Part shown: in pieces, positions 1 through 15,901 of the stretch
Position numbering within the stretch: position 1 is the first letter of the stretch
Layout: every line of letters begins with the position of its first letter
DNA from: Myxococcales bacterium
GTDB taxonomy: Bacteria; Myxococcota_A; Polyangia; DRWM01; JAAZOP01
Length of the DNA: 33,465 bases
Reading direction: 5' to 3'
NCBI GenBank assembly: GCA_012797735.1
Contig: JAAZOP010000175.1
Coordinates: forward strand, 1 to 33,465
Notes under the pieces: generated by a model
Told to the model about the DNA's origin: nothing
Database searches by the model: none
What the model saw: only the letters and a program-made list of their open reading frames with translations
Program-made: the position numbers and the translations under genes

Positions 1-1317
1 GAACCACGAGTTGTAGACGCCGCCCTTGGACCACAACCCCTCGTTCTCCGCCCACGCGTTCCGGGTCCGCTCGGCCAGCAACTCCTCGTACAGGATCAGG
101 CCGACGTTGACATCCGGCCCCGCCGCGCGTCCGCTGAAGTGGCCGTCGGCCGGGTCGGCGTCGCCCGAGGCGTACCCCGCTTCGGCCTTGGCCATGAAGA
201 TCCAGCGCGACCACCCCAACCGCGCGATCCACCCGAGCAGGTCGGCCTCCTTGTACGGGTAGAGGTGCGTCAGGGGGTCCTCGGGCCCGAGCGGAATCGC
301 GTAGGTGCTCCCGTGGATCGCGTAGAGCTCCCCCTCGAAGAACAGGTCCCACAGCCGCAACTTCGCGAACGCGTCGTGGATGAAGACCTCCGACGAGGTG
401 CTCGGCTGCTCCCGGTAGACGAAGTGGTAGCCCGCCGTCAGCGCGTCGGTCTCGGCGAACCAGTCGAGCCCGTCCTGCTTCCAGACCAGGCCCAGGAACC
501 ACTCGTCGACATCGTCGTCGTCCCCGGCCAGCCACCCGCTGTCGTAGGGCGGCCGGATGCGGCCCTGCTCCAGGAAGTCCTCGACCAGTTTCTCCCAGGC
601 CACGACGAGGATCAGCGGCGTGTCCTCGGCGGGCAGCCCGGCGATCGCCCGCACGATCGAGATCGGCTTGGTCGCGAACAGCAGCCGGTCGCACGTGGAA
701 CCGTAGTGGTTGTCGCCCAAGTCGTCGTCGAAGCCGTCGCCGTCGTCGCTGAGCAGCCCGAGGCCCCAGTCGGAGGGCTGGCGGCCGACGCGCAGCACCC
801 CGACCGGCAGGTTCGATTCGACCCAGGCGTGCCGCACGTAGACCCAGGGCGCCTCCTCGCCGCTCGCCCGCGTGCGCGACGGGTCGCCGGCGAACAGCGG
901 GGTGGAGGACAGCCCGGCGTTGTCGCCCCAGAGCACGTCGTCGAGCAGGTCGAGCGTGACGTAGAGCCTGACCCACTCGCCGTAGCCCACCTCCGGCTTC
1001 AGCCGCAGCCGCTGCGTCATGTACCGCAGCGTCTGCGTCCGCTGGTCCGCGGGGTTGAGCGGGTACATCACGTTCCCCAGGACGTGGGCGCGGGCGCGGT
1101 AGTAGCCGTGCAAAGCGTAGTGGAACCCGTCCTCCTCCCCTTCCGCCGGCGCCCCGCCGTCCTCGCCGGCGGCCGCCTCGTCCCGGTCCGGCGGTTCGAC
1201 CTCGCGCGGCGTGCCGTCGTCGACGGTCCAGGCCGGGTCCACCGCCGGACGCTCGGCCCGGGCCGGCGGAGCGGCCACGGAAACGACCAGCAACAAGGTC
1301 GGGGTGAAACGGATCAT
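1..1317 (-). CDS. Outer-membrane beta-barrel-like protein (C-terminus truncated by window edge)
   Basis: Manual reverse-strand reading: ATG at 1317, SD-like GAGGTGAG upstream, signal peptide MIRFTPTLLLVVSVAAPPARA, open to base 1. Contains 'LRVGRQPSDWGLGLLSDDGDGFDDDLGDNHYGSTCDRLLFATKPI', resembling the barrel at 12069-13991. Not in the ORF track because there is no stop inside the window. Confidence 0.85.
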   Translation of the reverse strand, partial: MIRFTPTLLLVVSVAAPPARAERPAVDPAWTVDDGTPREVEPPDRDEAAAGEDGGAPAEGEEDGFHYALHGYYRARAHVLGNVMYPLNPADQRTQTLRYMTQRLRLKPEVGYGEWVRLYVTLDLLDDVLWGDNAGLSSTPLFAGDPSRTRASGEEAPWVYVRHAWVESNLPVGVLRVGRQPSDWGLGLLSDDGDGFDDDLGDNHYGSTCDRLLFATKPISIVRAIAGLPAEDTPLILVVAWEKLVEDFLEQGRIRPPYDSGWLAGDDDDVDEWFLGLVWKQDGLDWFAETDALTAGYHFVYREQPSTSSEVFIHDAFAKLRLWDLFFEGELYAIHGSTYAIPLGPEDPLTHLYPYKEADLLGWIARLGWSRWIFMAKAEAGYASGDADPADGHFSGRAAGPDVNVGLILYEELLAERTRNAWAENEGLWSKGGVYNSWF

Positions 1318-1498
1318 GCGCCACCTCACCTCGCGGGACGGACCGGGGCACCGGCAGGCGCCGCGGGGACCCCCCGGGCGCGGACCGGCCGAGAGTACCC
1401 GGAGCGCCGCGCCGACACAACCGTCGCCTGCGCGGGGGCGGCGCGGCCGGCGCGGCAATTCACCGCCCGACCCGTTCCGATCGTGGCATACTGCAACC

Positions 1499-4021
1499 AT
1501 GCGACGATGCACACGACACGGTCCGGACGCATGGGTCCCCGTCGCCGTCGCGGCGATCCTCGCGCTCGCCGGAGGCTGTGCCGAAGGCGCCGCCGCCGGC
1601 GAGGCCGGGCCGGAGGGCGGGACCGACGCCGAAGGCCGCCACGACGCCGACGCCGGGACCGACGCCGGCGGGGATCCCGGCCCGGACCCCGGCCTCGACG
1701 CGGAGGCGGGCGACCCCGGCATCGACCTCCCGCCGTTCGACGGCGCCGACGGGGAAGAGGACGGCGGCGGCGAGGCCGACGCCGACGCGGGGCCCTGGTG
1801 CGGCGACTTCTGCGACCCGTTCTCGATCGTGCTGCTGCCCGACACGCAGTACTACACGAGCAAGCAGTCCTGGGGCCCCGACAACACGTATCGCAAGCAG
1901 ATGCAGTGGATCCTCGACCACCGCACCTCGCACAACATCCGGTTCGTCGTCCACCTGGGCGACATCACGAACAACAACACCGTCGACCAGTGGGAGATTG
2001 CGGACCGGGCGCACCGGATGCTGGACGATGCCGGAGTGCCGTACAGCGTCGTGCCGGGCAACCACGACTACCTCAGCCCGTTCTCGCGGAGCGGCACGCG
2101 GTTCAACGACTACTTCGGCCCGACGCGGTTCGCCGGCCGCCCGTGGTACGGCGGCCACTACGGCGGCGGCAACGAGAGCAACTACGCGCTGTTCGAGGTC
2201 GGACCGATGCGGTTCCTGGTGCTGAACCTCGAGTACGGTCCGCGCAAGGACCCGCTGTGCTGGGCCGAGGAGGTGATCGCCGCGCACCCGGACCGCCAGG
2301 TGATCGTGGTCAGCCACTGCGTCCTGACCCACGGCGGCGCGTACGACCACAACTGCCCGAACGTCGACTACCTCGTCCCGGGCGGCCACGGCGAGACGAT
2401 CTGGGACGAGCTGGTCGCCCGGCACAGCAACGTGTTCCTGGTGCTGTGCGGGCACGTCGGGGACTCCGAACTGGTGCCGCGCGCCGGCAACGGCATGAAC
2501 CTCGTGCACCAGATGCTGGTCGACTACCAGTTCGAGGCCGCGTGCACCGCCGCCGCTCCGGCCTCGTGCACGGCGCACTGCCAGGACGGGACGTACACCG
2601 GCAACGGCTGGATGCGCGAGCTGGTGTTCCACCCGCTCGAGGGGCGCATCGAGGCGCGGACGTTCACCGTCGAGGACGGCAACGCCGCCGTCTTCCCGGG
2701 CGGTCGTCCGTGGTTCTTCTGCTCCCCGGCGGACCCGGTGGGTCCCGAGGGCCACCGCTGGTACCCGTCCGATCCGTCCGACACGGTCCACCAGTTCTCG
2801 TTCGACCACGACCTGCGGCCTCCCGCGACCGACGTCCGGACCGACCTGGGACTGCGGGCCTTCACGGACCGGACGGTCAACGCCGTCGGCACCGGCGACC
2901 AGTTCGCTCCGCGGATCGCCGGCCGCGCCGGCGGCGACTTCGTCGTCGTCTGGGAGGACGACTCGTCGCCGGCCGACGGTGCCGGCAACTACGACCTGAT
3001 GGCCCGCGGCTTCGCCGCGGGCGGCTGCCAGCGGTTCGCCCAGATCGAGGTCAACCCGACGACGGCCGGGCAGCAGCGGGCACCCGCCGCCGGGATGGCC
3101 GCCGACGGTTCGTTCGTCGTCGCCTGGGAGGACGACAACGACGGGAACGGCGTCTACCAGGTCTACGCCCGCGGGTTCCGAGACGACGGCCGCGAGCGGT
3201 TCGCGGTCCGGACGGTCAACAGCGTCGCCGCCGGGCAGCAGCGCCACCCGGCCGTCGCCGTCGCCCCGGACGGCCGGTTCGTCGTCGCCTGGGAGGACGA
3301 CCAGGACAACGACGGCGACCTGCAGGTCTGGATGCGCGGGTTCGAGGCGGACGGTTCCGAGCGGTTCGCGGATCGCAGCGCGCACGACGACGACGCGGGC
3401 AACCGCCGTCGCCCGGCCCTCGCCGCCCTCCCCGACGGCGGCTTCGTCGTCGTATGGGAGGACGACGGCGACGGGAACGGCTACTACCAGATCCACGCGC
3501 GCGGCTTCGGACCCGACGGCGCCGAGCGTTTCGCGCGCCTGACCGTCAACAGCGTGGCCGACGGGCAGCAGGACCGGCCGGCCGTCGCCGCCGACGCCGC
3601 CGGCGGCTTCGTCGTCCTGTGGCAGGACGACCAGGAGAACGACGGGAACTACCAGATCTACGCGCGCGGTTTCGAGGCGGACGGGCGGCCGCGGTTCGCC
3701 GACCTCCGCGTCAACGGCGACGCCGGCGGCCAACACCTCGCCCCGGCCGTGTCCGTCGCCGACTCCGGCGCCTTTGTCGCCGTCTGGCAGGACGACTCCG
3801 ACGGCAACGGCAGCTACCAGATCCGCGCGCGCGCGTTCACCGCGGCCGGGTCCGAGCGGCGGGCGGAGTGGACGGCCAACCGATTCGCCGACGGCCAGCA
3901 GCGCGCCCCCGACGCGTTCCTCGAACGCTCCGGCGGACCGCTGGTCGTCGTCTGGGAGGACGACATGGACGGCAACGGCGCCTACCAGATCCTCGCCGGC
4001 GGCCTCGACCTGTCGCCGTAG
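1499..4021 (+). CDS. Secreted lipoprotein: calcineurin-like metallophosphoesterase fused to seven ~55-aa 'FVVVWEDDxDGNGxYQIYARGF' repeats
   Basis: Part of ORF 1211-4021; ATG at 1499 gives signal peptide/lipobox (LALAGGC). Motifs PDTQYYT, HLGDITNN, PGNHDY, VVSHCV, GHVGD fit metallophosphoesterases. Seven C-terminal repeats. Confidence 0.9.
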   Translation: MRRCTRHGPDAWVPVAVAAILALAGGCAEGAAAGEAGPEGGTDAEGRHDADAGTDAGGDPGPDPGLDAEAGDPGIDLPPFDGADGEEDGGGEADADAGPWCGDFCDPFSIVLLPDTQYYTSKQSWGPDNTYRKQMQWILDHRTSHNIRFVVHLGDITNNNTVDQWEIADRAHRMLDDAGVPYSVVPGNHDYLSPFSRSGTRFNDYFGPTRFAGRPWYGGHYGGGNESNYALFEVGPMRFLVLNLEYGPRKDPLCWAEEVIAAHPDRQVIVVSHCVLTHGGAYDHNCPNVDYLVPGGHGETIWDELVARHSNVFLVLCGHVGDSELVPRAGNGMNLVHQMLVDYQFEAACTAAAPASCTAHCQDGTYTGNGWMRELVFHPLEGRIEARTFTVEDGNAAVFPGGRPWFFCSPADPVGPEGHRWYPSDPSDTVHQFSFDHDLRPPATDVRTDLGLRAFTDRTVNAVGTGDQFAPRIAGRAGGDFVVVWEDDSSPADGAGNYDLMARGFAAGGCQRFAQIEVNPTTAGQQRAPAAGMAADGSFVVAWEDDNDGNGVYQVYARGFRDDGRERFAVRTVNSVAAGQQRHPAVAVAPDGRFVVAWEDDQDNDGDLQVWMRGFEADGSERFADRSAHDDDAGNRRRPALAALPDGGFVVVWEDDGDGNGYYQIHARGFGPDGAERFARLTVNSVADGQQDRPAVAADAAGGFVVLWQDDQENDGNYQIYARGFEADGRPRFADLRVNGDAGGQHLAPAVSVADSGAFVAVWQDDSDGNGSYQIRARAFTAAGSERRAEWTANRFADGQQRAPDAFLERSGGPLVVVWEDDMDGNGAYQILAGGLDLSP
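2868..4018 (+). repeat. Seven tandem ~165-bp coding repeats (protein unit ~55 aa, RFAxxTVNSxAxGQQxxPAVAxxxDGxFVVxWEDDxDGNGxYQIxARGFxxDGxE)
   Basis: Aligned by eye in the 936-aa translation; the nucleotide motif 'gtcgtc(g/t)cctgggaggacgac' recurs. Confidence 0.85.
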
Positions 4022-4025
4022 CCGC

Positions 4026-5558
4026 TCACCGGCAGCGGATCCACACCCGCGACCCCGGCTCGACGCAGGTCTCCGAGCCGACCGTGAAGGAGGCCGCGGG
4101 GCAGCCGAGTTCGCTCTCGCCGGCGGCGCGGTAGAACCACCCGGTCGTCGTCGGGGCGCCGCACGACCCGCCCGCCCATGGACGCTCGGCCTGCCGCACC
4201 AGACAACGCCGCCGCGGCAAGCCGTCGGCGCCGGCGGTGGTGCCGAGATCGCGTTTCAGCGGCTGGCAGGCCACCCCCGTCCGCGGGTTCCGGCACGCCG
4301 GCGGATCGTGGATCTGGGTCTCCATCAACGGCGGACAGCCGTACGCGGGACAGTCCGGATCCTCCGCACACGCCCGGTCGTCGCTCAGCGTCTCCACCAT
4401 CGCACAGTCGACCCGGCACGAGCCCGGCTCCCGGTCCAACGCCCGCCGCAGGCACGCCTCGGAATCCGGGACGACCTCGCCCAGCCGGTCGACGACGCCG
4501 GCGACGAGCGTGTCGCGCCAGTCGCGCCTGCAGATCGAATCCACGTGGGCCTGGCGCCCGAACGCCTGGGCCAGGCGGACCAGCCGGCGGGGCGGGAAGG
4601 CGAGGCCCATCTCGGTGGAGCAGGACGGAAGGAGCTGCGTCGGCACGACGGGATCGATCATCTCGACCATCTCCGGGGCCGAGAGGCATGCGTCCAGCGT
4701 GTCCCCGGGCCCGATGCACTGCGGGGCGTCCGGCGGCACGCCGATGATGAGGTTGAGGACGAGCCGGCCAGGGTCGGAACGCAGCCCCCGGAACGCCGCG
4801 ACGAACGTCTCGACGTCGGTGACGAACTCGGGCCACAGGAAACAGCGGAGGTTGGGATGGCCGAGGTCGGTGCGGTCCTGGTCGAACATCTCGGGGTGTT
4901 CGGGCCGCACCGAGCAGTCGTCCTCGTCGGTGACGAACAACAGGACCAAAATCGAATCCGGCCGCAGGAACCCGGCGTTGCAGCCGCTGGACCCGCTGTT
5001 CGGCGGCGTCAGCGCGGCCTGCATCGCCGCCAGCGGCTGTTCGAAGCCGCAACCGCTCGTCCCCAGCGTGGCGACACAGGCGAAGTCCGCGGCGAGCCGC
5101 GACACCGGATAGGAGTCCGCGTTCGACGGATTGCGCGAGAGGAACGCCGGATACGCCGCAGCGCACCCGGGGAGCCGCGGCTCGTGCAGGAAGCAGCCCT
5201 GGTCCCCGCCGAACGGCCGGCTACAGGTCCAAAGCTCGTGTCCGGCCGTCCCCATGTCCGGGGAGATCACCGCCAGGTTCAGGTCCTCGACCGGCGGGTG
5301 CGTCGGACGGCCCGTGTACGGATCGAGAGGCGGGTCGAGCAGTTCGGCGAGGGCGTCCGCGAACCGCAGCGCCAACACCGCCTGCTCCTCGGCCATCGAA
5401 CCGGAGTTGTCCACGAGCACCACGATATCGATCGGAGGCGTGCCGGACGGCTCGAAATCGAGGACCACGGTCGGGTCCTCCCCCGTGCCGTCGACGTCCG
5501 AGTACGACCGGAAGCAACCGGCGGCCAGCCAGGCACAGATCCACAGGGTCCGCCGCAT
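4026..5558 (-). CDS. VWA-domain Cys-rich lipoprotein
   Basis: ORF 4026-5558; lipobox CAWLAAGC; MIDAS-type 'DIVVLVDNSGSM'. Confidence 0.9.
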   Translation of the reverse strand: MRRTLWICAWLAAGCFRSYSDVDGTGEDPTVVLDFEPSGTPPIDIVVLVDNSGSMAEEQAVLALRFADALAELLDPPLDPYTGRPTHPPVEDLNLAVISPDMGTAGHELWTCSRPFGGDQGCFLHEPRLPGCAAAYPAFLSRNPSNADSYPVSRLAADFACVATLGTSGCGFEQPLAAMQAALTPPNSGSSGCNAGFLRPDSILVLLFVTDEDDCSVRPEHPEMFDQDRTDLGHPNLRCFLWPEFVTDVETFVAAFRGLRSDPGRLVLNLIIGVPPDAPQCIGPGDTLDACLSAPEMVEMIDPVVPTQLLPSCSTEMGLAFPPRRLVRLAQAFGRQAHVDSICRRDWRDTLVAGVVDRLGEVVPDSEACLRRALDREPGSCRVDCAMVETLSDDRACAEDPDCPAYGCPPLMETQIHDPPACRNPRTGVACQPLKRDLGTTAGADGLPRRRCLVRQAERPWAGGSCGAPTTTGWFYRAAGESELGCPAASFTVGSETCVEPGSRVWIRCR

Positions 5559-5628
5559 CGCGACCTCCCGCCGCCAGCATAGGCGAGGGAATCGACTAGG
5601 TCGAGCGCGACGGGCGTCGGGGAGGGGG

Positions 5629-6624
5629 TCAGTCGGGGAGTTCGGCGAGCGGGTTGACGTCCACGATCACGATCGCGTCCGCGATCGCGTGGACCTCCTT
5701 GCGGCCCAGGAGGTCGTAGGGGAACTCGGTGGTCGCGGCGGTCAGGCGGCCGCGGATCTCGAGCACCCAGTCGCCGGGCGGGACCTGGGCGATCGCGTAC
5801 AGGCCGTCCGGGCTCGAGTACGGCTGGTTGTCGATCCGCGAGGGGAACTCGTCGACGAAGTACCGCGCGTAGCACTCGCGCGGATTCAACACGTGGCAGT
5901 CCTGGCGGGAGGCGTCGAGCAGCCGCGCCACAATCCCCTCGACTTCGTCGGGAGGATCGGCGCAGTCCTGGAAGGCGCCGGCGATGATCGCGTGGTCGGC
6001 GTCCGGCGTGATGCCGAGGATCGTCGGGATGAGGCGGTAGGTCGAGTCGGAGATCGAGAGCGCCCGGACCCGGCCTCCGTCCGCGTCGGGGCATTCGACG
6101 TCGTACTCGACCGTCGTCCGCTGCGCCGCGCCGGTGGTGGGCGACGTCCCGCCGGTGGCCCGGTACGCGATCAGGCCGCGCGCCGGCAGCCCGGCCACGC
6201 CGGACACCTCGCCCGAGGCGTCGGTCGGCCCGACCGTCAGGTCCGGCGTCTCGTCGACCACGTTGTCGAAGAACAGCTCCAGCGTGACCCCCGGAACGCG
6301 GTATTCGTCCTCGAAGTCCTCCACGTAGAGCGTCGCCGTGACGGTGCCGGGAAGCGGCGGGATCGGCGGGTTGTTCCCGAGGCAGCTCATGTCGGCCCCC
6401 GTCTCGGCCAGGGTCGGCAGCCGCATCTCGCAGACGTGCGACTCGGGCACGCACACCGACCCGATCGGACACTCGTCCGTCCGGCTGCAGTGGCCCGCCG
6501 TGTCGCCCGGCGTGTCGCCCGCCGTGTCGCCGGCGTCCGGGTTGCCGCTGTCGTCGTCGCCGCAGGCGAAGGCCAGCCCCAGCACCAGCCCCGCAAGACC
6601 CAGGCCCAATCCGATGCGCTTCAT
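5629..6624 (-). CDS. Small lipoprotein with a Cys-containing segment and a carboxypeptidase-regulatory-like middle region (function unknown)
   Basis: In-frame part of ORF 5629-8340; ATG at 6624, MKRIGLGLGLAGLVLGLAFACGDDDSG..., then 'CSRTDECPIGSVCVPESHVCE'. Confidence 0.8.
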   Translation of the reverse strand: MKRIGLGLGLAGLVLGLAFACGDDDSGNPDAGDTAGDTPGDTAGHCSRTDECPIGSVCVPESHVCEMRLPTLAETGADMSCLGNNPPIPPLPGTVTATLYVEDFEDEYRVPGVTLELFFDNVVDETPDLTVGPTDASGEVSGVAGLPARGLIAYRATGGTSPTTGAAQRTTVEYDVECPDADGGRVRALSISDSTYRLIPTILGITPDADHAIIAGAFQDCADPPDEVEGIVARLLDASRQDCHVLNPRECYARYFVDEFPSRIDNQPYSSPDGLYAIAQVPPGDWVLEIRGRLTAATTEFPYDLLGRKEVHAIADAIVIVDVNPLAELPD

Positions 6625-6647
6625 CTCCGTCTCCCTCCTCTCCTCAC

Positions 6648-8354
6648 CTAGGGCCGGCGCTCCAGCATCTCGAGCACCGTCCGTTCGATCGTCGGCCAGC
6701 CGTTCGGGCCGATCGAGTTGGTTTCCTCGTAGTGGTCGCCGAACGCGTCCTCGACGTACGGCTGGAGTTCGTCCACGAAGTAGTCGTAGGCGGGGATCAT
6801 GTATCCGAGCATGTCGTTGGTCAGGCCCCAGGCCATCGGGTAGTCGGCGCCCTCCAGCCGGTCGAACAGGTAGGGCGGACCCGGCGCGCGGGTGAGGTCG
6901 GGCGGATGGGGCTGGTCGGGCGCCACGATCGGCCAGACGTCGGGGGTGTAGCGGCCGTCGTAGCCCCCGAGGAACAGTTCCGGGCACGGTTCGCCGCCGA
7001 AGGTCAACACCTGGGCGCGACCCAGCTTGATCCACGATACCTCGCTCCAGAGGTGCGGGAAGTTGCCCGACTCCAGCGGCAGGGTCGGGTCGTAGCCGTG
7101 GATCTCGCGGTCGCGGAACGTCTTGTTCAGCAGCATGGCGTGGTAGGCGTAGTTCTCGACCACGAGGTCGAACCGGGCGCGGACCCAGGCCAGGTCGAGC
7201 GTGTCTTCCGGCGCGGTCGCCTCCGACAGCGCGCGCAGGGCGCCCACGGCCAGGATCCGGCCGACCTCCTGCGCCCCCTCGATGCTCCGCAACACGTCGT
7301 GCGGCAGATCGACCCCGTCCAACCCCGTGCACTGGACCCGCCCGGGGCCGATCTGGCTGCCGAGCGGCCCCTGGACGAAGACGGCGGTGCCGCCCACGCC
7401 CGGCACGTCCACCGGCCCCTCGGTCACCCCTTCCTCGATGCCGACGCGCAGAGCGTGCACGTAGTCGGCGGTCAGCGAGTTGATCTCGTCCGAGGAGTAC
7501 TCGGCATGGGACGTGAAGTGGACCAGCGTGGCGATCGTCGAGCCGTCGGCGGCGTCCTGGAAGCCGAGCACGGTGAGGTACGGGTCCAGGATCACCGGGT
7601 CCCGCGCGTCGGAGACGACGTTGGCGATCCCCTTCGTCGGGTGTTCGCCCGGGATCGTGCGCCCGTAGCGCACGCGCGCGGGACGGAGGTCCGCCACCGC
7701 GTCGCGCGTCGCCTGCTCCATCTGCGCCAGCAGGAACTCCATGTACGCCGGATCGGCGCCGCACGTCACCTCGTCGAGCCCCCAGATCCCGATCGTGTCC
7801 GGACCCTCGTGGTTGTGGCTCGCCGCCACCAGCAGGTAGTCGATCCCCAGGTCCGCGACCGACCGGCGCAGCGCCTCCACGTCGTCGTAGAAGAGGCCGA
7901 CGATGTCGGCGGTGACGATCGCCAGGAGCTTTTCCCCCGAGCGGATCGCCAGCGTGCGCACCTCGATGTCGTCGTGGATGTCGTTGGCCGGCCGCGGGTT
8001 GCCGAAGCCGGCGATCCACACGCCGTCGAACCGCCCGTTGCCGTTGGTGTCCTGGTACTGGTCGCCGTCCCGCGGGTCGTACTCCCCGTCGCCGTCCACG
8101 TCGACCGTCATCGGCTCGGTGATCGTCGGATTGGCCAGCCGCACGCCGACCCCCACCTCGAACGACGACGGCGTCTCCGCGGGGCAACCCGGGTCGCCCG
8201 GACAGCGCCAGAAGGTCGTCGGGAACGGGACGTCCCCGTCCGCCTCGTCCGCATCCGCATCCGTCCCGCCGTCGTCCGCGGCGGACGTCGTGCCGTCGCC
8301 GCACGCCGCCATCGCCAGCGGCAACATTGCCACCCACCAACCTCTGCCGTGCAT
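6648..8354 (-). CDS. Neutral/alkaline non-lysosomal ceramidase-like lipoprotein
   Basis: In-frame part of ORF 6648-11990; ATG at 8354, lipobox PLAMAAC; 'WIAGFGNPRPANDIHDDIEVRTLAI', 'VTADIVGLF', 'AASHNHEGPDTIGIWG' resemble the neutral ceramidase N-terminal domain. Confidence 0.75.
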   Translation of the reverse strand: MHGRGWWVAMLPLAMAACGDGTTSAADDGGTDADADEADGDVPFPTTFWRCPGDPGCPAETPSSFEVGVGVRLANPTITEPMTVDVDGDGEYDPRDGDQYQDTNGNGRFDGVWIAGFGNPRPANDIHDDIEVRTLAIRSGEKLLAIVTADIVGLFYDDVEALRRSVADLGIDYLLVAASHNHEGPDTIGIWGLDEVTCGADPAYMEFLLAQMEQATRDAVADLRPARVRYGRTIPGEHPTKGIANVVSDARDPVILDPYLTVLGFQDAADGSTIATLVHFTSHAEYSSDEINSLTADYVHALRVGIEEGVTEGPVDVPGVGGTAVFVQGPLGSQIGPGRVQCTGLDGVDLPHDVLRSIEGAQEVGRILAVGALRALSEATAPEDTLDLAWVRARFDLVVENYAYHAMLLNKTFRDREIHGYDPTLPLESGNFPHLWSEVSWIKLGRAQVLTFGGEPCPELFLGGYDGRYTPDVWPIVAPDQPHPPDLTRAPGPPYLFDRLEGADYPMAWGLTNDMLGYMIPAYDYFVDELQPYVEDAFGDHYEETNSIGPNGWPTIERTVLEMLERRP

Positions 8355-8386
8355 GAGCGCCTCCCCTCCCCTCGTCGTCCCGGCCG

Positions 8387-11300
8387 CTACGGCGCGGGCG
8401 TGGGCCAGTCGGGTCCGAACGGCCACTCCGGCAGTTCGGGACAACTGTTGTCCTCGAGGCAGAGCCGGTAGTCGAGGACGCGCCCCTGCGTGCCGAAGTA
8501 GCGGCCGATCATGTTGATCATGAAGGTGTTGACGTCGAACGGCAGAGTGGGGTCGGGCACGTAGAACCCGTGGTCGCCCGCGGCCGAGATGTAGGGGAGG
8601 ACGAGGGCCGAGGCGCCCTGCGGGCATTCGACCATCTCCAGCACCCCTTCCCCGTCGCGCGTGACCTCGCACTCCGAAACCGGGGCGCCGCGCGACGGCT
8701 GCCAGGCGCGCAGCGGGAGGAACGGCTCGGAGTAGGTCTGCGGCCGGAGCTGGCCGAAACCGTCGGTGCCGCGCGACAGGTCGTCGATGTCGAACAGGGC
8801 CGGCGTCCCCCATTCCGGCGGGTTGAGACGCTCGAGGCCCATGTAGACGCCGAAATCGATCAGCGCCCGGTTCGGGGTCCGGCCGCCCAGGTCGGGCGAG
8901 CGCGACGCGGCGTCCCAGCGGAGGGCGCCGGCGCAACGGGCGATCGAGATGCCGGTGTTGGTCGGGACGTTCATGTCGCCGACGGTCACGATCGTCATCG
9001 AGTTCCGGTAGTGCGGCGCGTAGACCGCCGGGTCGCCGGGGTCGAGCACGAGCTGGGCCAGGCCCATGAAGCGACGGATGTCGGGGGTGCCCCGCCGCAA
9101 CCCGAGCCCCTCGGCCGGCGCGACCAGGTCGTCGCCCACCCCCCAGTCGTCCCACTCGAACGGCGGCGGGTCGATCTCGAAGGTCCGGATCGGCGCCGCG
9201 CGTCCGTCGGCGTCGGCGGTGCGCGGCCGCACGCCGGGGGCCAGCGCGCAGGTCTCGGCATCGACCAGCGGGTAGGCGCCGCCGGTGGCGGAGGCGCCGT
9301 CGTAGATCATGATCTCGAGGTGGTCGTGGAGGTTGGCGGGAATGCCGATGCGCACGCGCGGCTGGGCGCACTGCGGGTCGTCGTCGTCGGTGGCCCCGTC
9401 CCCGTCGTTGTCGAGGCCGTCGTGACAGTCGAGCGACATCAGGTTGCCGTTCTCGGCCGCCTGGGCCACGAAGCAGCGTGGTTCCTCGGGCCGGCGCATG
9501 TTGCGCAGCACGACCACGTCGCCCGGCCGGATCGTGCGGTCGGTGTCGGTCGCCGCGTCGGAGTTCAGACACGCGAACTCGACCTCGCCGGTGTTGTTGA
9601 GCTGCGGGATCAGGAAGCGGGCCGAGACGACGCTCGGGTCGCAGGCTTCCGCCGCCGGATCGCAGCACGCCGTCCGGTTGCGGCGGGCGTCGGTGTTGTA
9701 GCGCGAGGCCGCCGGGACGAACAGCACGATCGGCCCCATCATCCGGAGGATCACCGCCTCCTTCACGCCGCCCTGCGTCGACCGGATGCCGACGTCGCCC
9801 AGCCCGCCGCCGCCCGAGACGGGGGCCACGGCGCGGATCGAGGGATGGGTGCCGCCGAGCACGCCGGACATGATCCCGCCGAGCGACTGGCCCCAGACGT
9901 AGTAGTCGTTGTCCGGGCCGCCGAAATCGATGTCGCCGTCGCCGTCGAAGTCCCCGGCGAAGTCGTTGCGACCGTCGGCGTTGAAGTCGTACGGCTCGCG
10001 CTCGCCGTCGCCATCGATGTCGAACTCCGCCGCCCGGCGGCCGTCGAACGACCGGAAGATCTGGATCAGGCGAATCAGGTCCAGGGCCGACTGGCGGACC
10101 ACGTCGCGGGTATGGAACAGGTAGGAGGTCCAGAAGTCGCCGGCCGAATCCTCCACGTCGTCCTCGTAGCGCACGTTCGACCAGCGCTGTCCGTCCCAGC
10201 TCCCGAGCCACGCGTTGGGCTCGCCGGTCGCCGTTCCCCCGGGCAGTTCCGCCACGTCCTGCGCGTAGCCGCTGAACGGCACGTCGAAGTGCATCGTCGG
10301 GAAGCACGGGTGCTTGCCGCACGGGGCGGCCTCGAGGTCGGCCGGGTCGCTGCCCGAGCCGGAGTATTTGTCGTTGTCCATGTCGACCGCGCGATCGTCG
10401 AGCAGCGCGAGACCGGCACCGTGCAGATCCTCGTTGTTGAAGATCCCCATCGCCACGTCCTTGAGGATCGGATCGATGGCGATGCCGTGGTGGACGCAGT
10501 CCCAGGTGACGGTCGTCAGACCGAACTTGGCCAGCGAGCCGGCGAAGCCCAGTCCCTCGATCTTGAAGCCCGTGTAGCCGTGGCCGTAGAAGACCACCGG
10601 CGCCGGGGCGTTCTCCGGCTTGCCGTTGTTGCGGTTGTACTGCCGCACGAACTCGTCCTTCGGCACCATCGCGATGAAGTTCACGCGCCCCGGCGTGTAG
10701 CGCCCGCGGCCCGTCTTCCAGTTGACGTCCCAGGACTCCTCCTCCCAGCCGTCGCCGTCGCTGTCGAGGAACTGGGGCGAGACGAACCAGCCGAAGACGA
10801 AGCAGTCGATGAACTGGTACGTGTTGACCAGCGGCGCCGCCTCGGCCGGATTGAGGTCGAACACCTCCGTCGCGGCGCGCAGCAGCGTGGGCGCGAGGAA
10901 CTCGGCCTTGATCGTGTAGATGTTCGCCGGCAGCTCGCGACGGCAACCGCCGTACGGATTGCAGATGTGCAGCGGGAAGATGTAGGCCTCCGGCGGAAAC
11001 TCGTCGTGCAAACGCGCGAACGGCCCCGTCCCGTCCTCCAGCCCCTCGATCATCTTCAGGATGTCCATCCGCACGCTCTCGGTCCCGTACGTCCAGGCGA
11101 ACGCCACGTCCTCGATCCGCAGCCCGCCGTAGATCTCGGGATGTGCCGCCAGGATCCCCTCCAGCGGCGCCAGGTCCGCCGTCTGGTCGACGTGGTGGAA
11201 GTAGGGGAAGGGCGAGCGCACCGGCTGGCCGCGCGTGTTGACCAGCCGCTTCGTCAGCACCACGGCGTACTGCGTCTGCTCCTCGAGCGGCACGATCGGT

Positions 11301-12043
11301 CGCGCCATCAGCGTGTTCGTCTCCCGCTCGTAGAACGTCAACAGGTCCGCCGTCCGGTCCGGACTGGGATTCACCGCGGACGGATCGATCACGTTCGGAT
11401 GGTCCAGCACGCCGTCGAAGTCGGTGTCCTCCTCCGGCTGCAGGATGCCGTCCCCGTTCCGGTCCTCCTCGTAGGTCTCCAGCAGCAGGCTGCTCGAGCC
11501 GCCCCGGGTGTCGTTCTCGTAGTAGCGATCGGTCTGCTGCAGCACGATCGGGAAGTCGCCCTCGCCCAGGTCGAGCGGCACGGGGAGGCCGAACTTGTCC
11601 GAATCGGGGTCGATGTTGATCAGGTAGATCGCGTCGTCCGCGAAGTCGAAATCGTCCCCGACGTGGCGGGCGATGATGTTCTGCACGTCCAGCACCGCCG
11701 CCTCCGGGTCGGTGGGATGCGTGAAGCCGACCGAGATCGGCGAGTAGACGCCCCACCCGTCCAGCTGGTCGATCTTCGCCCGCGAGTTCGCTTCCATCTC
11801 CGTGGGAGCGACCTTCGAGGCGTTGATGCGGCGGCCGGTGGGCGAGTTCGGGTCGGGACGCGTCGCCGCGTCGTTCGGCAACGGCACCTCGGGCAGCGGT
11901 TTCGCGAACAGGTTCCACTTCACCACCGGCCCGTCGCCTTCGTGGCGGTCCGGCGTGCCGAGCGAGGGCGGGAGGCCGCCGCCGTCGCACGCCGCGAGCG
12001 TCGCGGCCAGTCCGAGCGTCAGGATCGTCGTCGTGATGCGCAT
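8387..12043 (-). CDS. Large (1218 aa) lipase-like alpha/beta-hydrolase lipoprotein
   Basis: ORF 8387-12043; lipobox LAATLAAC; 'VVFYGHGYTGFKIEGLGFAGSLAKFGLTTVTWD' oxyanion-type region and 'YYVWGQSLGGIMSGVLGGTHP' nucleophile elbow (GxSxG). Confidence 0.8.
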   Translation of the reverse strand: MRITTTILTLGLAATLAACDGGGLPPSLGTPDRHEGDGPVVKWNLFAKPLPEVPLPNDAATRPDPNSPTGRRINASKVAPTEMEANSRAKIDQLDGWGVYSPISVGFTHPTDPEAAVLDVQNIIARHVGDDFDFADDAIYLINIDPDSDKFGLPVPLDLGEGDFPIVLQQTDRYYENDTRGGSSSLLLETYEEDRNGDGILQPEEDTDFDGVLDHPNVIDPSAVNPSPDRTADLLTFYERETNTLMARPIVPLEEQTQYAVVLTKRLVNTRGQPVRSPFPYFHHVDQTADLAPLEGILAAHPEIYGGLRIEDVAFAWTYGTESVRMDILKMIEGLEDGTGPFARLHDEFPPEAYIFPLHICNPYGGCRRELPANIYTIKAEFLAPTLLRAATEVFDLNPAEAAPLVNTYQFIDCFVFGWFVSPQFLDSDGDGWEEESWDVNWKTGRGRYTPGRVNFIAMVPKDEFVRQYNRNNGKPENAPAPVVFYGHGYTGFKIEGLGFAGSLAKFGLTTVTWDCVHHGIAIDPILKDVAMGIFNNEDLHGAGLALLDDRAVDMDNDKYSGSGSDPADLEAAPCGKHPCFPTMHFDVPFSGYAQDVAELPGGTATGEPNAWLGSWDGQRWSNVRYEDDVEDSAGDFWTSYLFHTRDVVRQSALDLIRLIQIFRSFDGRRAAEFDIDGDGEREPYDFNADGRNDFAGDFDGDGDIDFGGPDNDYYVWGQSLGGIMSGVLGGTHPSIRAVAPVSGGGGLGDVGIRSTQGGVKEAVILRMMGPIVLFVPAASRYNTDARRNRTACCDPAAEACDPSVVSARFLIPQLNNTGEVEFACLNSDAATDTDRTIRPGDVVVLRNMRRPEEPRCFVAQAAENGNLMSLDCHDGLDNDGDGATDDDDPQCAQPRVRIGIPANLHDHLEIMIYDGASATGGAYPLVDAETCALAPGVRPRTADADGRAAPIRTFEIDPPPFEWDDWGVGDDLVAPAEGLGLRRGTPDIRRFMGLAQLVLDPGDPAVYAPHYRNSMTIVTVGDMNVPTNTGISIARCAGALRWDAASRSPDLGGRTPNRALIDFGVYMGLERLNPPEWGTPALFDIDDLSRGTDGFGQLRPQTYSEPFLPLRAWQPSRGAPVSECEVTRDGEGVLEMVECPQGASALVLPYISAAGDHGFYVPDPTLPFDVNTFMINMIGRYFGTQGRVLDYRLCLEDNSCPELPEWPFGPDWPTPAP

Positions 12044-12068
12044 CGTGCTTCTCCCTTCGCCCCGACCG

Positions 12069-13991
12069 TCAGAACTTCATCGCGACCCGGCCCTCGACGA
12101 GCCAGATCGGGTCCAGACCGTTCCCGTCCGCGTCCTCGAACGCATCGCCGGGGAACAGGCAGCCGAACTGCAGGCCGCCCTGCAGTTCCACCAGGCGCAG
12201 CGGCACGAAGAAGTCGGTCGCCGCGTCGATCTCCACGCCGAGGTTCCGGCCGCCGGACGGACCGCCCATGAAGTTCCGCGGCACCCCGTTCACCTTCTGC
12301 TCGAACGGACTCACCACGTCCGACGTCGCGTAGCCCCAGAGCACGCCGAGCGACCCCTGGAACCAGGACCAGGGACGCGCCCGGAACGTCGGGTTCAGGT
12401 ACAACGCGCCCGACACGCCGCCGTTCGTGGACAACAGGTCGAGCCCCGGCACCGGCTCGCCCGCCAGGCCGGGATCGCCGGCCAGCGTCGCCGCCCGCGC
12501 GTACTGCCAGGCCCACAACTCCTCGAACAGGACCAACCCGACGTTGTAGTCCGGGTCGAACGTGAACCGGAGCTGCTGGTCGTCGTAGGTGTTCGCGTCC
12601 CCCGTCGCCGCCCCCAACTCGAGCCCCGCGAAGTACTGCCCCTCGTAGTCGGCCGTGGCCCGCAGCGCGCCCCCGAACTGCAGGATGTCGTGCTCCGGCG
12701 CCGTCAGCGAACGCGCCGCATCGGTCGTCCCGAAGACGCCGACCCCCTCCCCCGCCACCTGCAGGTTCCACGACGGCGCGAGTTCGAACGTCCAGTCCCC
12801 CGCCAGGTCGATCGCGACCACCTCGAGCGTGTCGCCGTCGTCGAACGTCTGGTTGCGGTAGGCCACGTACATCCCGGCCGAGTTCCGCTCCTGCCGGTAG
12901 AGGAACGCCAGGATCCCCTGCCACGCCAGGTCCCCGTTCCACAGATCGGCCAGATGGTCGCGGTACACCAGGTCCGCGCCCACGATCGTCACCAGGTCCT
13001 TCCAGAAGGTGTCGGTCACCGTGTGGAGCGGTTTCGTCGCGAAGACGACCCGCTCGACCAGATCGCCGTAGCGGTTGTAGCCCCACGTCTGCGGCCGGTC
13101 GCCGTCGTTCGCCAGCAGCCCCAGCCCCCAGTTCGACGCCTGCTGCCCCGCCCGCAGGATCCCGTAGCCCGTGTCCCACTCGACGTAGAGCTGCCGGAAG
13201 TCGAACGGCCGGATCCCCACCAACTCGCCGCTCGAACCGTCCTCCCCCGCCGGCGCCTCTCGCATCCGCGGTTCGAGCGCCGCATCGACCCCCACGGTGG
13301 AATCGCCGAAAATCGTGCCGGTCATCACGTCGAACTGGCCGCGGATCTTCACGGACGAGATCGAGATCTCCGGCGACGCCCGCAGCCGGCTCCAGCCGTA
13401 GAAGTTCTGCCCCAGGTTCCGGCCGAACGGCCGCTCGCCCGCCGGGTCCGCCGGCCCGAGCGGCATGTCGGCGAGACCGAACATCGAGAGCTGGTAGTAG
13501 CCTGGAATCGCGACGTGCAACCGCCCGGTCTCCCCCTCCAACTGCACGTCCGCCTCGCCGCCCGCGGTCGCCCCCTCCCCCGCCGACTCCTCGGTCGCCG
13601 CGTCCGGCTCCACCGCACGGCCGCCGGCCAGCAGCAGCTCGCTCGACGGCCCCGCTTCCTCCCCCGGCTCCTCGACGACCGATTCGCCCTCACCCGCCGC
13701 CGCCTGGGCTTCCGCCTCGACCGCTTCCCCCGCCGCCGGCGCGCCGGCCGGCGCCTCGCCCCCGGCCGAAACGGCGCCCTCGGCTTCGGCTTCCGCCGGC
13801 TCGCCGCCCGCCGCCTCCGGCGTGGCCGTCTCACTCTCCGCCGGGGCCGGAGCCTCCGCCGCGGACGTGACGGCCGCTTCCACCGCCGTCTGGGCCGCGG
13901 CCGATCCCGCCGCCGACACCGCCGCCAGGACGACGAACGCGGCCCCTGAAACACAAAGACTGAAGCCTGGACGTGCTGCGCGTCGCTTCAT
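12069..13991 (-). CDS. Outer-membrane beta-barrel-like protein with long Ala/Glu/Pro-rich N-terminal extension
   Basis: ORF 12069-13991; signal peptide, ~130-aa low-complexity segment, then a barrel-like region ending 'VEGRVAMKF' (terminal aromatic). Paralogous to CDS 1-1317. SD-like GAGGAG upstream of ATG. Confidence 0.85.
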   Translation of the reverse strand: MKRRAARPGFSLCVSGAAFVVLAAVSAAGSAAAQTAVEAAVTSAAEAPAPAESETATPEAAGGEPAEAEAEGAVSAGGEAPAGAPAAGEAVEAEAQAAAGEGESVVEEPGEEAGPSSELLLAGGRAVEPDAATEESAGEGATAGGEADVQLEGETGRLHVAIPGYYQLSMFGLADMPLGPADPAGERPFGRNLGQNFYGWSRLRASPEISISSVKIRGQFDVMTGTIFGDSTVGVDAALEPRMREAPAGEDGSSGELVGIRPFDFRQLYVEWDTGYGILRAGQQASNWGLGLLANDGDRPQTWGYNRYGDLVERVVFATKPLHTVTDTFWKDLVTIVGADLVYRDHLADLWNGDLAWQGILAFLYRQERNSAGMYVAYRNQTFDDGDTLEVVAIDLAGDWTFELAPSWNLQVAGEGVGVFGTTDAARSLTAPEHDILQFGGALRATADYEGQYFAGLELGAATGDANTYDDQQLRFTFDPDYNVGLVLFEELWAWQYARAATLAGDPGLAGEPVPGLDLLSTNGGVSGALYLNPTFRARPWSWFQGSLGVLWGYATSDVVSPFEQKVNGVPRNFMGGPSGGRNLGVEIDAATDFFVPLRLVELQGGLQFGCLFPGDAFEDADGNGLDPIWLVEGRVAMKF

Positions 13992-14063
13992 GAATTTCTC
14001 CTCGTTCCCTCGGGAACCACGACCCCGCGACTGCCTCGGCCACGAGCGTCCGTTCGGGCGCGC

Positions 14064-14092
14064 ACTATACGGTGGACCCTCCGCGAAGTCAA
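14064..14092 (-). promoter_or_regulatory. Sigma70-like promoter for the leftward cluster (TTGACT-N17-TATAGT)
   Basis: Reverse complement of 14087-14092 (agtcaa) and 14064-14069 (actata) with exactly 17 bp between them; each box matches consensus 5/6. About 70 bp upstream of the ATG at 13991. Confidence 0.55.
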
Positions 14093-14440: not shown

Positions 14441-15901
14441 ATGTCGACCAAGTTGTTCGGTATCGCTCTGGGAGTCGCGCTCCTGGCCGGGTTGGGCGCG
14501 TGGGGCTGCGGCGACGACGACGGCGGGTGTGCGGCCGGCGAGGCGACGTGCAACGGGCACTGCGTGGACCTGAACACGGACTTCAACAACTGCGGCGGGT
14601 GCGGGCGGACGTGTCCGGCCGGCACGATGTGCCAGGGCGGATCGTGCATCTGCGCCGGCGGCCTGACGCTGTGCGGGACGACCTGCGTCAGCACGCAGGG
14701 CGATCCGGCGAACTGCGGGACGTGCGGGCACGTCTGCGCGCCGGGCGAGTACTGCCGGGCCGGCGTTTGCACGTCGGAGTGCACGCCGATCGACGAGAGC
14801 TGCAACAACCGGGACGACGACTGCGACACGATGATCGACGACGGCGTCTCGCGTTCGTGCGACACGGCGTGCGGGGCGGGGACGCAGACCTGCACGAACG
14901 GCGTCTGGGGCGCGTGCACGGCGCCGACGCCGGCGACCGAGGTGTGCGACGGGGCGGACAACGACTGCGACACCTCCACCGACGAGGGGGTGGGCACGAC
15001 GTACTATCGCGACGCGGACGGCGACATGTACGGCGACCCGGCGGTCACCCAGGTGGCGTGCAGCACGGCACCCGCCGGCTACGTCTCGAACGACGACGAC
15101 TGCAACGACGGGGACCGCAACATCCGGCCGGGCAACCCGGAGAACTGCTCGAACACGGTCGATGACAACTGCGACGGTTCGACGGACGACGGCTGCGCCT
15201 GCGCGCCGGTGGGCGGCACCGAGTCGTGCGGCTTCGGCGACACCGGCGAGTGCGTGTTGGGGACGCGCTCCTGCACCGCGTCCGGATGGGGTCCCTGCAG
15301 CGGCGCCGTGATGCCGGCGACCGAGGTCTGCGACGAGCTGGACAACGACTGCGACGGTTCGACGGACGAGGCGCTGCCGCCGGACAGCTACGAGAACAAC
15401 GACACCTGCGCCCAGGCGCGGGCGCTGCCGCGGGCCGACGAGGGTTGGGCGACCGACCCGCTGATCACGGTCACCGACGCCACGCTGCTCAAGAGCGACG
15501 GCAGCGCGGACACCGACTGGTTCACGATCGAGGCCTCGGAGGCGACGCACCTCGACTGCGGCTGGCCGTGGGAGGCGCGCCCCCAGTGCTACTTCGTGCT
15601 CGAGATCAACCTGACCCCGCCGCCGGGCGCCGTGCACACCAACTGGCGGATGTGCGTCTACGCCGGCGACACATGCACCGACCTCGGCACCGCGTACTGC
15701 ACCGACGCCTCGGACTGGAATGCCACGGCCGGCGCGTACCAGATGGCCCTCTCCTGGCAAGGCACCTGCTACCTCGACGACTCGTGGACCTTCCGCGTGA
15801 AGGTGGACTCGACCGGGTCGCCCGCCTCGTCCTGCCGGCCCTACCGCCTCGGCTACCGGTTCTACTTCGAGGGCGGCGCCGGCGAGACGTACTGCGAGTA
15901 G
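14441..15901 (+). CDS. Cys-rich lipoprotein with MopE-type putative metal-binding motifs
   Basis: ORF 14417-15901, likely start at the second Met (14441); lipobox LGAWGC; four motifs: ESCNNRDDDCDTMIDDG, EVCDGADNDCDTSTDEG, ENCSNTVDDNCDGSTDDG, EVCDELDNDCDGSTDEA; 'DDDCNDGDRNIRPGNPENC' typical of the family. Confidence 0.9.
   Translation: MSTKLFGIALGVALLAGLGAWGCGDDDGGCAAGEATCNGHCVDLNTDFNNCGGCGRTCPAGTMCQGGSCICAGGLTLCGTTCVSTQGDPANCGTCGHVCAPGEYCRAGVCTSECTPIDESCNNRDDDCDTMIDDGVSRSCDTACGAGTQTCTNGVWGACTAPTPATEVCDGADNDCDTSTDEGVGTTYYRDADGDMYGDPAVTQVACSTAPAGYVSNDDDCNDGDRNIRPGNPENCSNTVDDNCDGSTDDGCACAPVGGTESCGFGDTGECVLGTRSCTASGWGPCSGAVMPATEVCDELDNDCDGSTDEALPPDSYENNDTCAQARALPRADEGWATDPLITVTDATLLKSDGSADTDWFTIEASEATHLDCGWPWEARPQCYFVLEINLTPPPGAVHTNWRMCVYAGDTCTDLGTAYCTDASDWNATAGAYQMALSWQGTCYLDDSWTFRVKVDSTGSPASSCRPYRLGYRFYFEGGAGETYCE

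Follow-up and report, generated by a model that had tools for sequence, protein, structure and literature searches.

A modular cell-envelope locus with VolA-like and ceramidase-related lipoproteins and two outer-membrane barrels in a Myxococcales bacterium

Layout of the locus and its promoter

The window, meaning the whole stretch of DNA analysed, comprises 33,465 nucleotides of a Myxococcales bacterium (contig JAAZOP010000175.1). Five minus-strand genes, designated A to E, occupy positions 4026-13991 with successive gaps of 25, 32, 23 and 70 bp (Table 1; gene starts are those of a simple ORF caller). This layout, with a sigma70-like promoter ahead of it, had been described in a reading of the sequence alone, and both were confirmed. 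The sequence-only reading took the five genes as the whole anatomy. The cluster is real, but a second barrel gene, A2, and the division into A-B and C-D-A2 modules had been missed. The remaining 99 residues of A2 are encoded at the start of contig C377 (C377:1-300).

Table 1. Positions of genes and promoter at the locus, in window coordinates
Feature	Position	Strand	Description
Gene A	12069..13991	-	640 aa outer-membrane beta-barrel (A type)
Gene B	8387..12043	-	1218 aa lipoprotein, VolA/Pla-1-like alpha/beta hydrolase
Gene C	6648..8354	-	568 aa lipoprotein, neutral-ceramidase superfamily
Gene D	5629..6624	-	331 aa lipoprotein, beta-sandwich-like; putative partner of A2
Gene E	4026..5558	-	510 aa VWA/MIDAS-like lipoprotein
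Metallophosphoesterase lipoprotein gene	1499..4021	+	between E and A2; PF00149 4e-10
Gene A2	1..1317	-	second outer-membrane barrel, incomplete at contig end; TIGR04551 6.4e-23
Sigma70-like promoter	14064..14092	-	TTGACT-N17-TATAGT, about 70 bp ahead of A

The promoter is the single site of its kind in 12.5 kb, where 0.2 were expected from shuffles, and all four genomes of the genus carry TTGACT-N17/18-TATAGT ahead of A. In the three sisters, the block GCTTTGACT...CGTATAGT, in which the hexamers are spaced by 17 or 18 bp, stands out from flanks that have largely diverged. This phylogenetic footprint is the strongest argument for a genuine promoter. A single operon-like unit with conserved synteny is supported at the sequence level, and its genes are presumably co-transcribed. 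On the plus strand, window positions 14441-15898 encode a cysteine-rich lipoprotein with MopE-type metal-binding and STIG1-like motifs, a homolog of which flanks the locus in genomes G001 and G002.

Families and predicted folds of the encoded proteins

The best family for B is that of the VolA/Pla-1 phospholipases, TIGR03502 (4.6e-13, 48.3 bits). B does not reach the curated cut-off of 383.9 bits, nor does any of 144 genomes in the class. Weaker matches link B to PHA depolymerase and to esterases (dienelactone hydrolase, chlorogenic acid esterase). The GxSxG motif recognised earlier is GQSLG at residues 718-722, and it belongs to an intact Ser-Asp-His triad. In an alignment of 23 proteins (B and 22 relatives, VolA-like proteins among them), S720, D1023 and H1158 are each at least 90% conserved, and the HG at residues 488-489 is conserved as well, in the VolA-like proteins too. 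At three loci (L131, L132 and L134) a VolA-like gene is directly followed by a FadL gene (PF03349 by Pfam). The class therefore has both lipase-FadL and lipase-A-barrel pairs.

Taken by itself, C has no PF04734 match in Pfam, and a plain PDB sequence search likewise misses it. A PF04734 search of its own genome came back empty. As C itself, a remote member, escaped it, the empty result is no proof of absence. C homologs match PF04734 below the cut-off, and distant paralogs match above it. A profile built from 32 C homologs, which takes in some distant paralogs closer to ceramidases, matches the neutral ceramidases 2zws (7.6e-20) and 4wgk (7.2e-18). The predicted structure of C (pLDDT 89.5) gave Foldseek matches to 2zxc (1.3e-21) and 4wgk (1.5e-19) with a probability of 1.00, and below an E-value of 0.001 only neutral ceramidases match. 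The ceramidase-like motifs reported from the sequence are borne out. The HxH...H...E...Y set is present as H180, H182, H283, E455 and Y542, the zinc ligands being mapped by profile alignment with the Glu and Tyr placed via partial alignments and motif, and these residues are retained in 97-99 of 100 distinct family proteins.

The substrate assignment to ceramide or sphingolipid fared less well. The GDxSP/GNLSP serine motif occurs in 9 of the 100 family proteins, mostly distant paralogs, and is missing from the C-type proteins, in which G-x-[LV]-G-[GS]-[QLM]-x-[GT] replaces it. In human ASAH2, Ser354 of the GDxSP motif holds the catalytic Arg257 (PMC6952831). The motif serine was equated with Ser274 of the Pseudomonas enzyme by profile alignment and our own residue numbering. 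Since the C subfamily lacks this motif, ceramide need not be the substrate of C; from the sequence, ceramide is possible but not indicated. C is likely a zinc hydrolase whose substrate pocket has changed. Compared with the neutral ceramidases of Pseudomonas aeruginosa (2zws/2zxc) and human (ASAH2, 4wgk), C shares the predicted fold and the zinc-ligand set, but it is only about 14% identical, lacks the Ser354/Ser274 motif, is extended at the N-terminus by a region that contains CPG...C and segments rich in D, N and G, and lies in a two-barrel operon context. At the column of the lost serine, residue 336 of C, Gly is found in 47 and Thr in 37 of the 100 proteins, and the Thr-bearing members may keep a hydroxyl at this position.

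D alone matches no family, Pfam included, and gives only weak CarboxypepD_reg and transthyretin-like hints. CarboxypepD_reg is matched by 6 of 20 D homologs (best 2.8e-6), which indicates a beta-sandwich domain. The fixed place of D before A2 suggests a barrel partner and, going by gene position, perhaps a substrate-binding lipoprotein. E has a weak VWA match and matches a MIDAS adhesin model at 2.6e-4. The lipoboxes noted earlier are confirmed as lipobox-like cysteines in B (LAAC), C (MAAC), D (AFAC, weak) and E (AAGC). Lipoproteins of the M. xanthus inner membrane tend to have Lys at position +2, and those of the outer membrane follow no rule (PMC3222651). Lys at +2 is absent from all four lipoproteins here, the +2 residue of B being Asp. 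The four are putatively exposed at the surface.

Barrel A carries an acidic low-complexity N-terminus and a Sec-type signal ending in AAAQ. A (2.5e-19, 69.6 bits) and the incomplete A2 (81.4 bits) match the N-terminal half of the uncharacterised NCBIfam family TIGR04551, both far under its curated cut-off of 300 bits; a literature search on TIGR04551 found no paper naming the family. The sequence-only reading had proposed a FadL-type barrel, to be checked by structure prediction. The predicted structure of A consists of 18 long strands behind the disordered acidic N-terminus, with a mean pLDDT of 68 overall and mostly 80-95 within the barrel. Its best Foldseek matches are AlgE (1.1e-15), Campylobacter MOMP, OprD/Occ channels and chitoporin, and FadL is absent among the 50 best PDB folds. 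A has no Pfam match at E<=1, FadL PF03349 included, and a PDB sequence search with the barrels matched no solved barrel. The 18 predicted strands, the missing Pfam FadL match and the AlgE and OprD/Occ fold matches contradict a FadL-type barrel. For Alginate_exp (PF13372), one A2 homolog scores above the cut-off (34.4 vs 25.2 bits), and the window's A and incomplete A2 are unmatched. The likeness to AlgE and OprD/Occ lies in the predicted fold of A and in this A2 homolog. The locus differs from theirs in having no alginate machinery, in barrel genes that are paired with hydrolase and lipoprotein genes, and in barrels that resemble no solved barrel in sequence. A bona fide FadL is encoded elsewhere in the same genome, and the locus is therefore dispensable for ordinary fatty-acid uptake.

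Other barrels were met along the way. At L162 (G000:C393), a further gene of the same barrel superfamily at 2122-4718 overlaps by 4 bp with a gene for a 341-aa protein of alpha/beta-hydrolase-like sequence, which has no Pfam match. At L161 (G000:C442), positions 1021-5348, a fourth barrel gene is convergent with what appear by eye to be electron-transfer flavoprotein subunit genes.

Synteny and modules across the class

The survey of C, one scan of named genomes, yielded 80 loci, which were mapped by a simple ORF caller and purpose-built profile HMMs; the genomes compared are mostly MAGs with broken contigs. The sisters G001 and G003 carry A-B-C-D-A2 on a single strand, D being followed directly by A2. 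In G002 and the window, E and the opposite-strand metallophosphoesterase gene separate D from A2, and among the mapped loci both genes occur at this place solely in those two. Because the sisters have D and then A2 directly, E is a lineage-specific insertion, and it probably lies outside the core of the system to which it had been assigned. A relative of E lies near a C paralog in G003. The genome-neighbourhood check proposed in the sequence-only reading upholds conserved synteny for A, B, C and D, but not for E.

In the window's genus, B is placed between A and C. G004, of the same order as the window's genome, has B-C-D-A2-C on a contig that starts within B. Sandaracinaceae and related MAGs have A-C-D-A2 without B (L057, L060, L063; G047 as L026; L059 partly), and a C-(DnaJ-like)-D-A2 arrangement is found in L075, L086 and L095, with the same layout in L094. 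In these Myxococcota loci the intervening gene, with a DnaJ-like N-terminus, lies at 11673-12728 in L075, 11702-12673 in L086 and 11683-12636 in L095. Other C loci hold C-D alone, and many C homologs are solitary. D and A2 thus form a second conserved pair, mostly accompanied by C: they are paired with C in L057, L060, L063, L059, L075, L086, L094, L095 and L105, and without C in L179, L180 and L183, the genomes with a C-less pair being G005, G056 and G028.

For the other module, an A-type barrel gene lies immediately upstream of B on the same strand in at least 15 of the 26 B-carrying genomes of the class, among the matches listed (G000-G003, G009, G016, G021, G030, G067, G068, G074 twice, G081, G094, G100 and G114). 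This count was made by hand, comparing the positions of B matches, strong in 26 genomes, with those of barrel matches wherever a genome was covered by both searches. No same-strand barrel stands beside B in about 11 of the 26, among the matches listed; in G005 the barrel is divergent from B. Gene maps confirm most of the pairs and add G182 and G222. With about 1-8 barrel matches per genome and thousands of genes, adjacency by chance would be far below 1% per B gene. Synteny in several families rules out a chance neighbourhood. The locus is a real, conserved and modular envelope operon, with A-B and C-D-A2 as its modules, insofar as its genes are co-transcribed as their arrangement suggests.

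A tree of 41 barrels splits, with full support, into the A2 type, whose genes accompany C-D or D, and the A type, whose genes accompany B or precede C. A single clade uniting the A barrels from A-B-C-D-A2 loci with those from A-C-D-A2 loci was rejected with a p-AU of 2e-7, a value to be read with care as this grouping was picked after the tree was seen. The A barrels not being one clade indicates that an A-type barrel was probably placed before C-D-A2 more than once.

Proposed function and competing explanations

The closest known system is VolA-FadL of Vibrio. VolA of V. cholerae releases fatty acids from external lipids and FadL takes them up (PMC12208996, PMC9496633). VolA, a lysophospholipase lipoprotein at the cell surface, is related to B (TIGR03502) and acts together with a channel of the outer membrane. 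Here, in contrast, the barrel is AlgE/OprD-like with 18 predicted strands rather than FadL, B is distant (48 vs 384 bits), and a second module, C-D-A2, is joined to the first.

The reading that we favour, with about even confidence, is that of a cell-envelope lipid-scavenging unit of two modules, in which lipid hydrolysis is coupled to uptake through dedicated barrels. In the first module, the VolA-like lipoprotein hydrolase B would cut ester-linked acyl lipids, and A would be its dedicated 18-stranded barrel. In the second, the zinc hydrolase C would cut acyl amides or related bonds, the beta-sandwich lipoprotein D would accompany the A2 barrel, and A2 would serve as the channel of the module. 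Substrates would be hydrolysed at the outer membrane or beyond it, and A and A2 would import the products. Gene content, synteny, the conserved promoter and the catalytic residues were directly shown, and the folds are predicted; to these the scavenging reading adds surface exposure, the substrates, the direction of transport, co-transcription and contact between barrels and lipoproteins. Several observations weigh against it, among them the FadL encoded elsewhere in the genome and the roughly 11 of 26 B-carrying genomes in which the listed matches show no same-strand barrel beside B. The best fold matches of A are an exporter (AlgE) and channels for hydrophilic solutes, with no lipid channel among them; B falls far short of the VolA family cut-off; and C by itself does not reach PF04734.

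Scavenging of esters and amides other than lipids is an alternative that we consider rather unlikely. B would then act as a depolymerase or an esterase, and C as an amidase, on prey or environmental polymers or on acylated small molecules, and the barrels would import hydrophilic products. Occ channels transport hydrophilic acids, and their presence among the fold matches of A fits such a role, as do the weak depolymerase and esterase matches of B and the loss of the ceramidase serine motif in the C subfamily. VolA/Pla-1 is nevertheless the top-scoring family of B, and the VolA-like relatives in the class adjoin FadL genes.

The direction of transport is reversed if the locus serves envelope remodelling or export, an explanation that we also regard as improbable. 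The barrels would export an acylated or polysaccharide product, and B and C would trim the cell's own acyl chains en route or in the outer leaflet. Glycosyltransferase, inner-membrane exporter and periplasmic scaffold genes are not evident in the locus or in the loci of relatives, the OprD/Occ uptake channels match the fold too, and the VolA precedent is one of uptake. In its favour are AlgE, an alginate exporter, as the top fold match, the A2 homolog above the Alginate_exp cut-off, the fact that all the enzymes are lipoproteins on the same envelope, and the FadL encoded elsewhere in the genome. Foraging on ceramide or sphingolipid by five genes acting together with a FadL-like fatty-acid barrel, as first proposed, is very improbable: C does belong to the neutral-ceramidase superfamily with its zinc site intact and the synteny is real, but the barrels are not FadL-like, GDxSP is replaced in the C subfamily and E is an insertion, so that of the single lipid system the cluster and the lipid theme stand, the barrel type and E were wrong and ceramide was over-specific.

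If the two-module scavenging reading is correct, it would define a route for external lipid use in these relatives of predatory bacteria. Should the barrels serve lipases as in VolA-FadL, a function could be assigned to a widespread uncharacterised barrel family, and for one branch of the neutral-ceramidase superfamily the genomic setting would make the substrate amenable to testing. A broader proposal, which we put forward tentatively, is that outer-membrane lipid uptake in Myxococcota includes a class of its own. In it, 18-strand barrels of the AlgE/OprD type would stand in for FadL as partners of surface lipases, and a second, acyl-amide-specific unit would be made up of a serine-less branch of the neutral-ceramidase superfamily, its dedicated barrel and a beta-sandwich lipoprotein.

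In M. xanthus, 34 peptides of the outer-membrane proteome belong to a putative lipoprotein whose locus tag adjoins that of FadL (MXAN7039/MXAN7040; PMC3222651). The two are possibly a pair of the VolA-FadL type.
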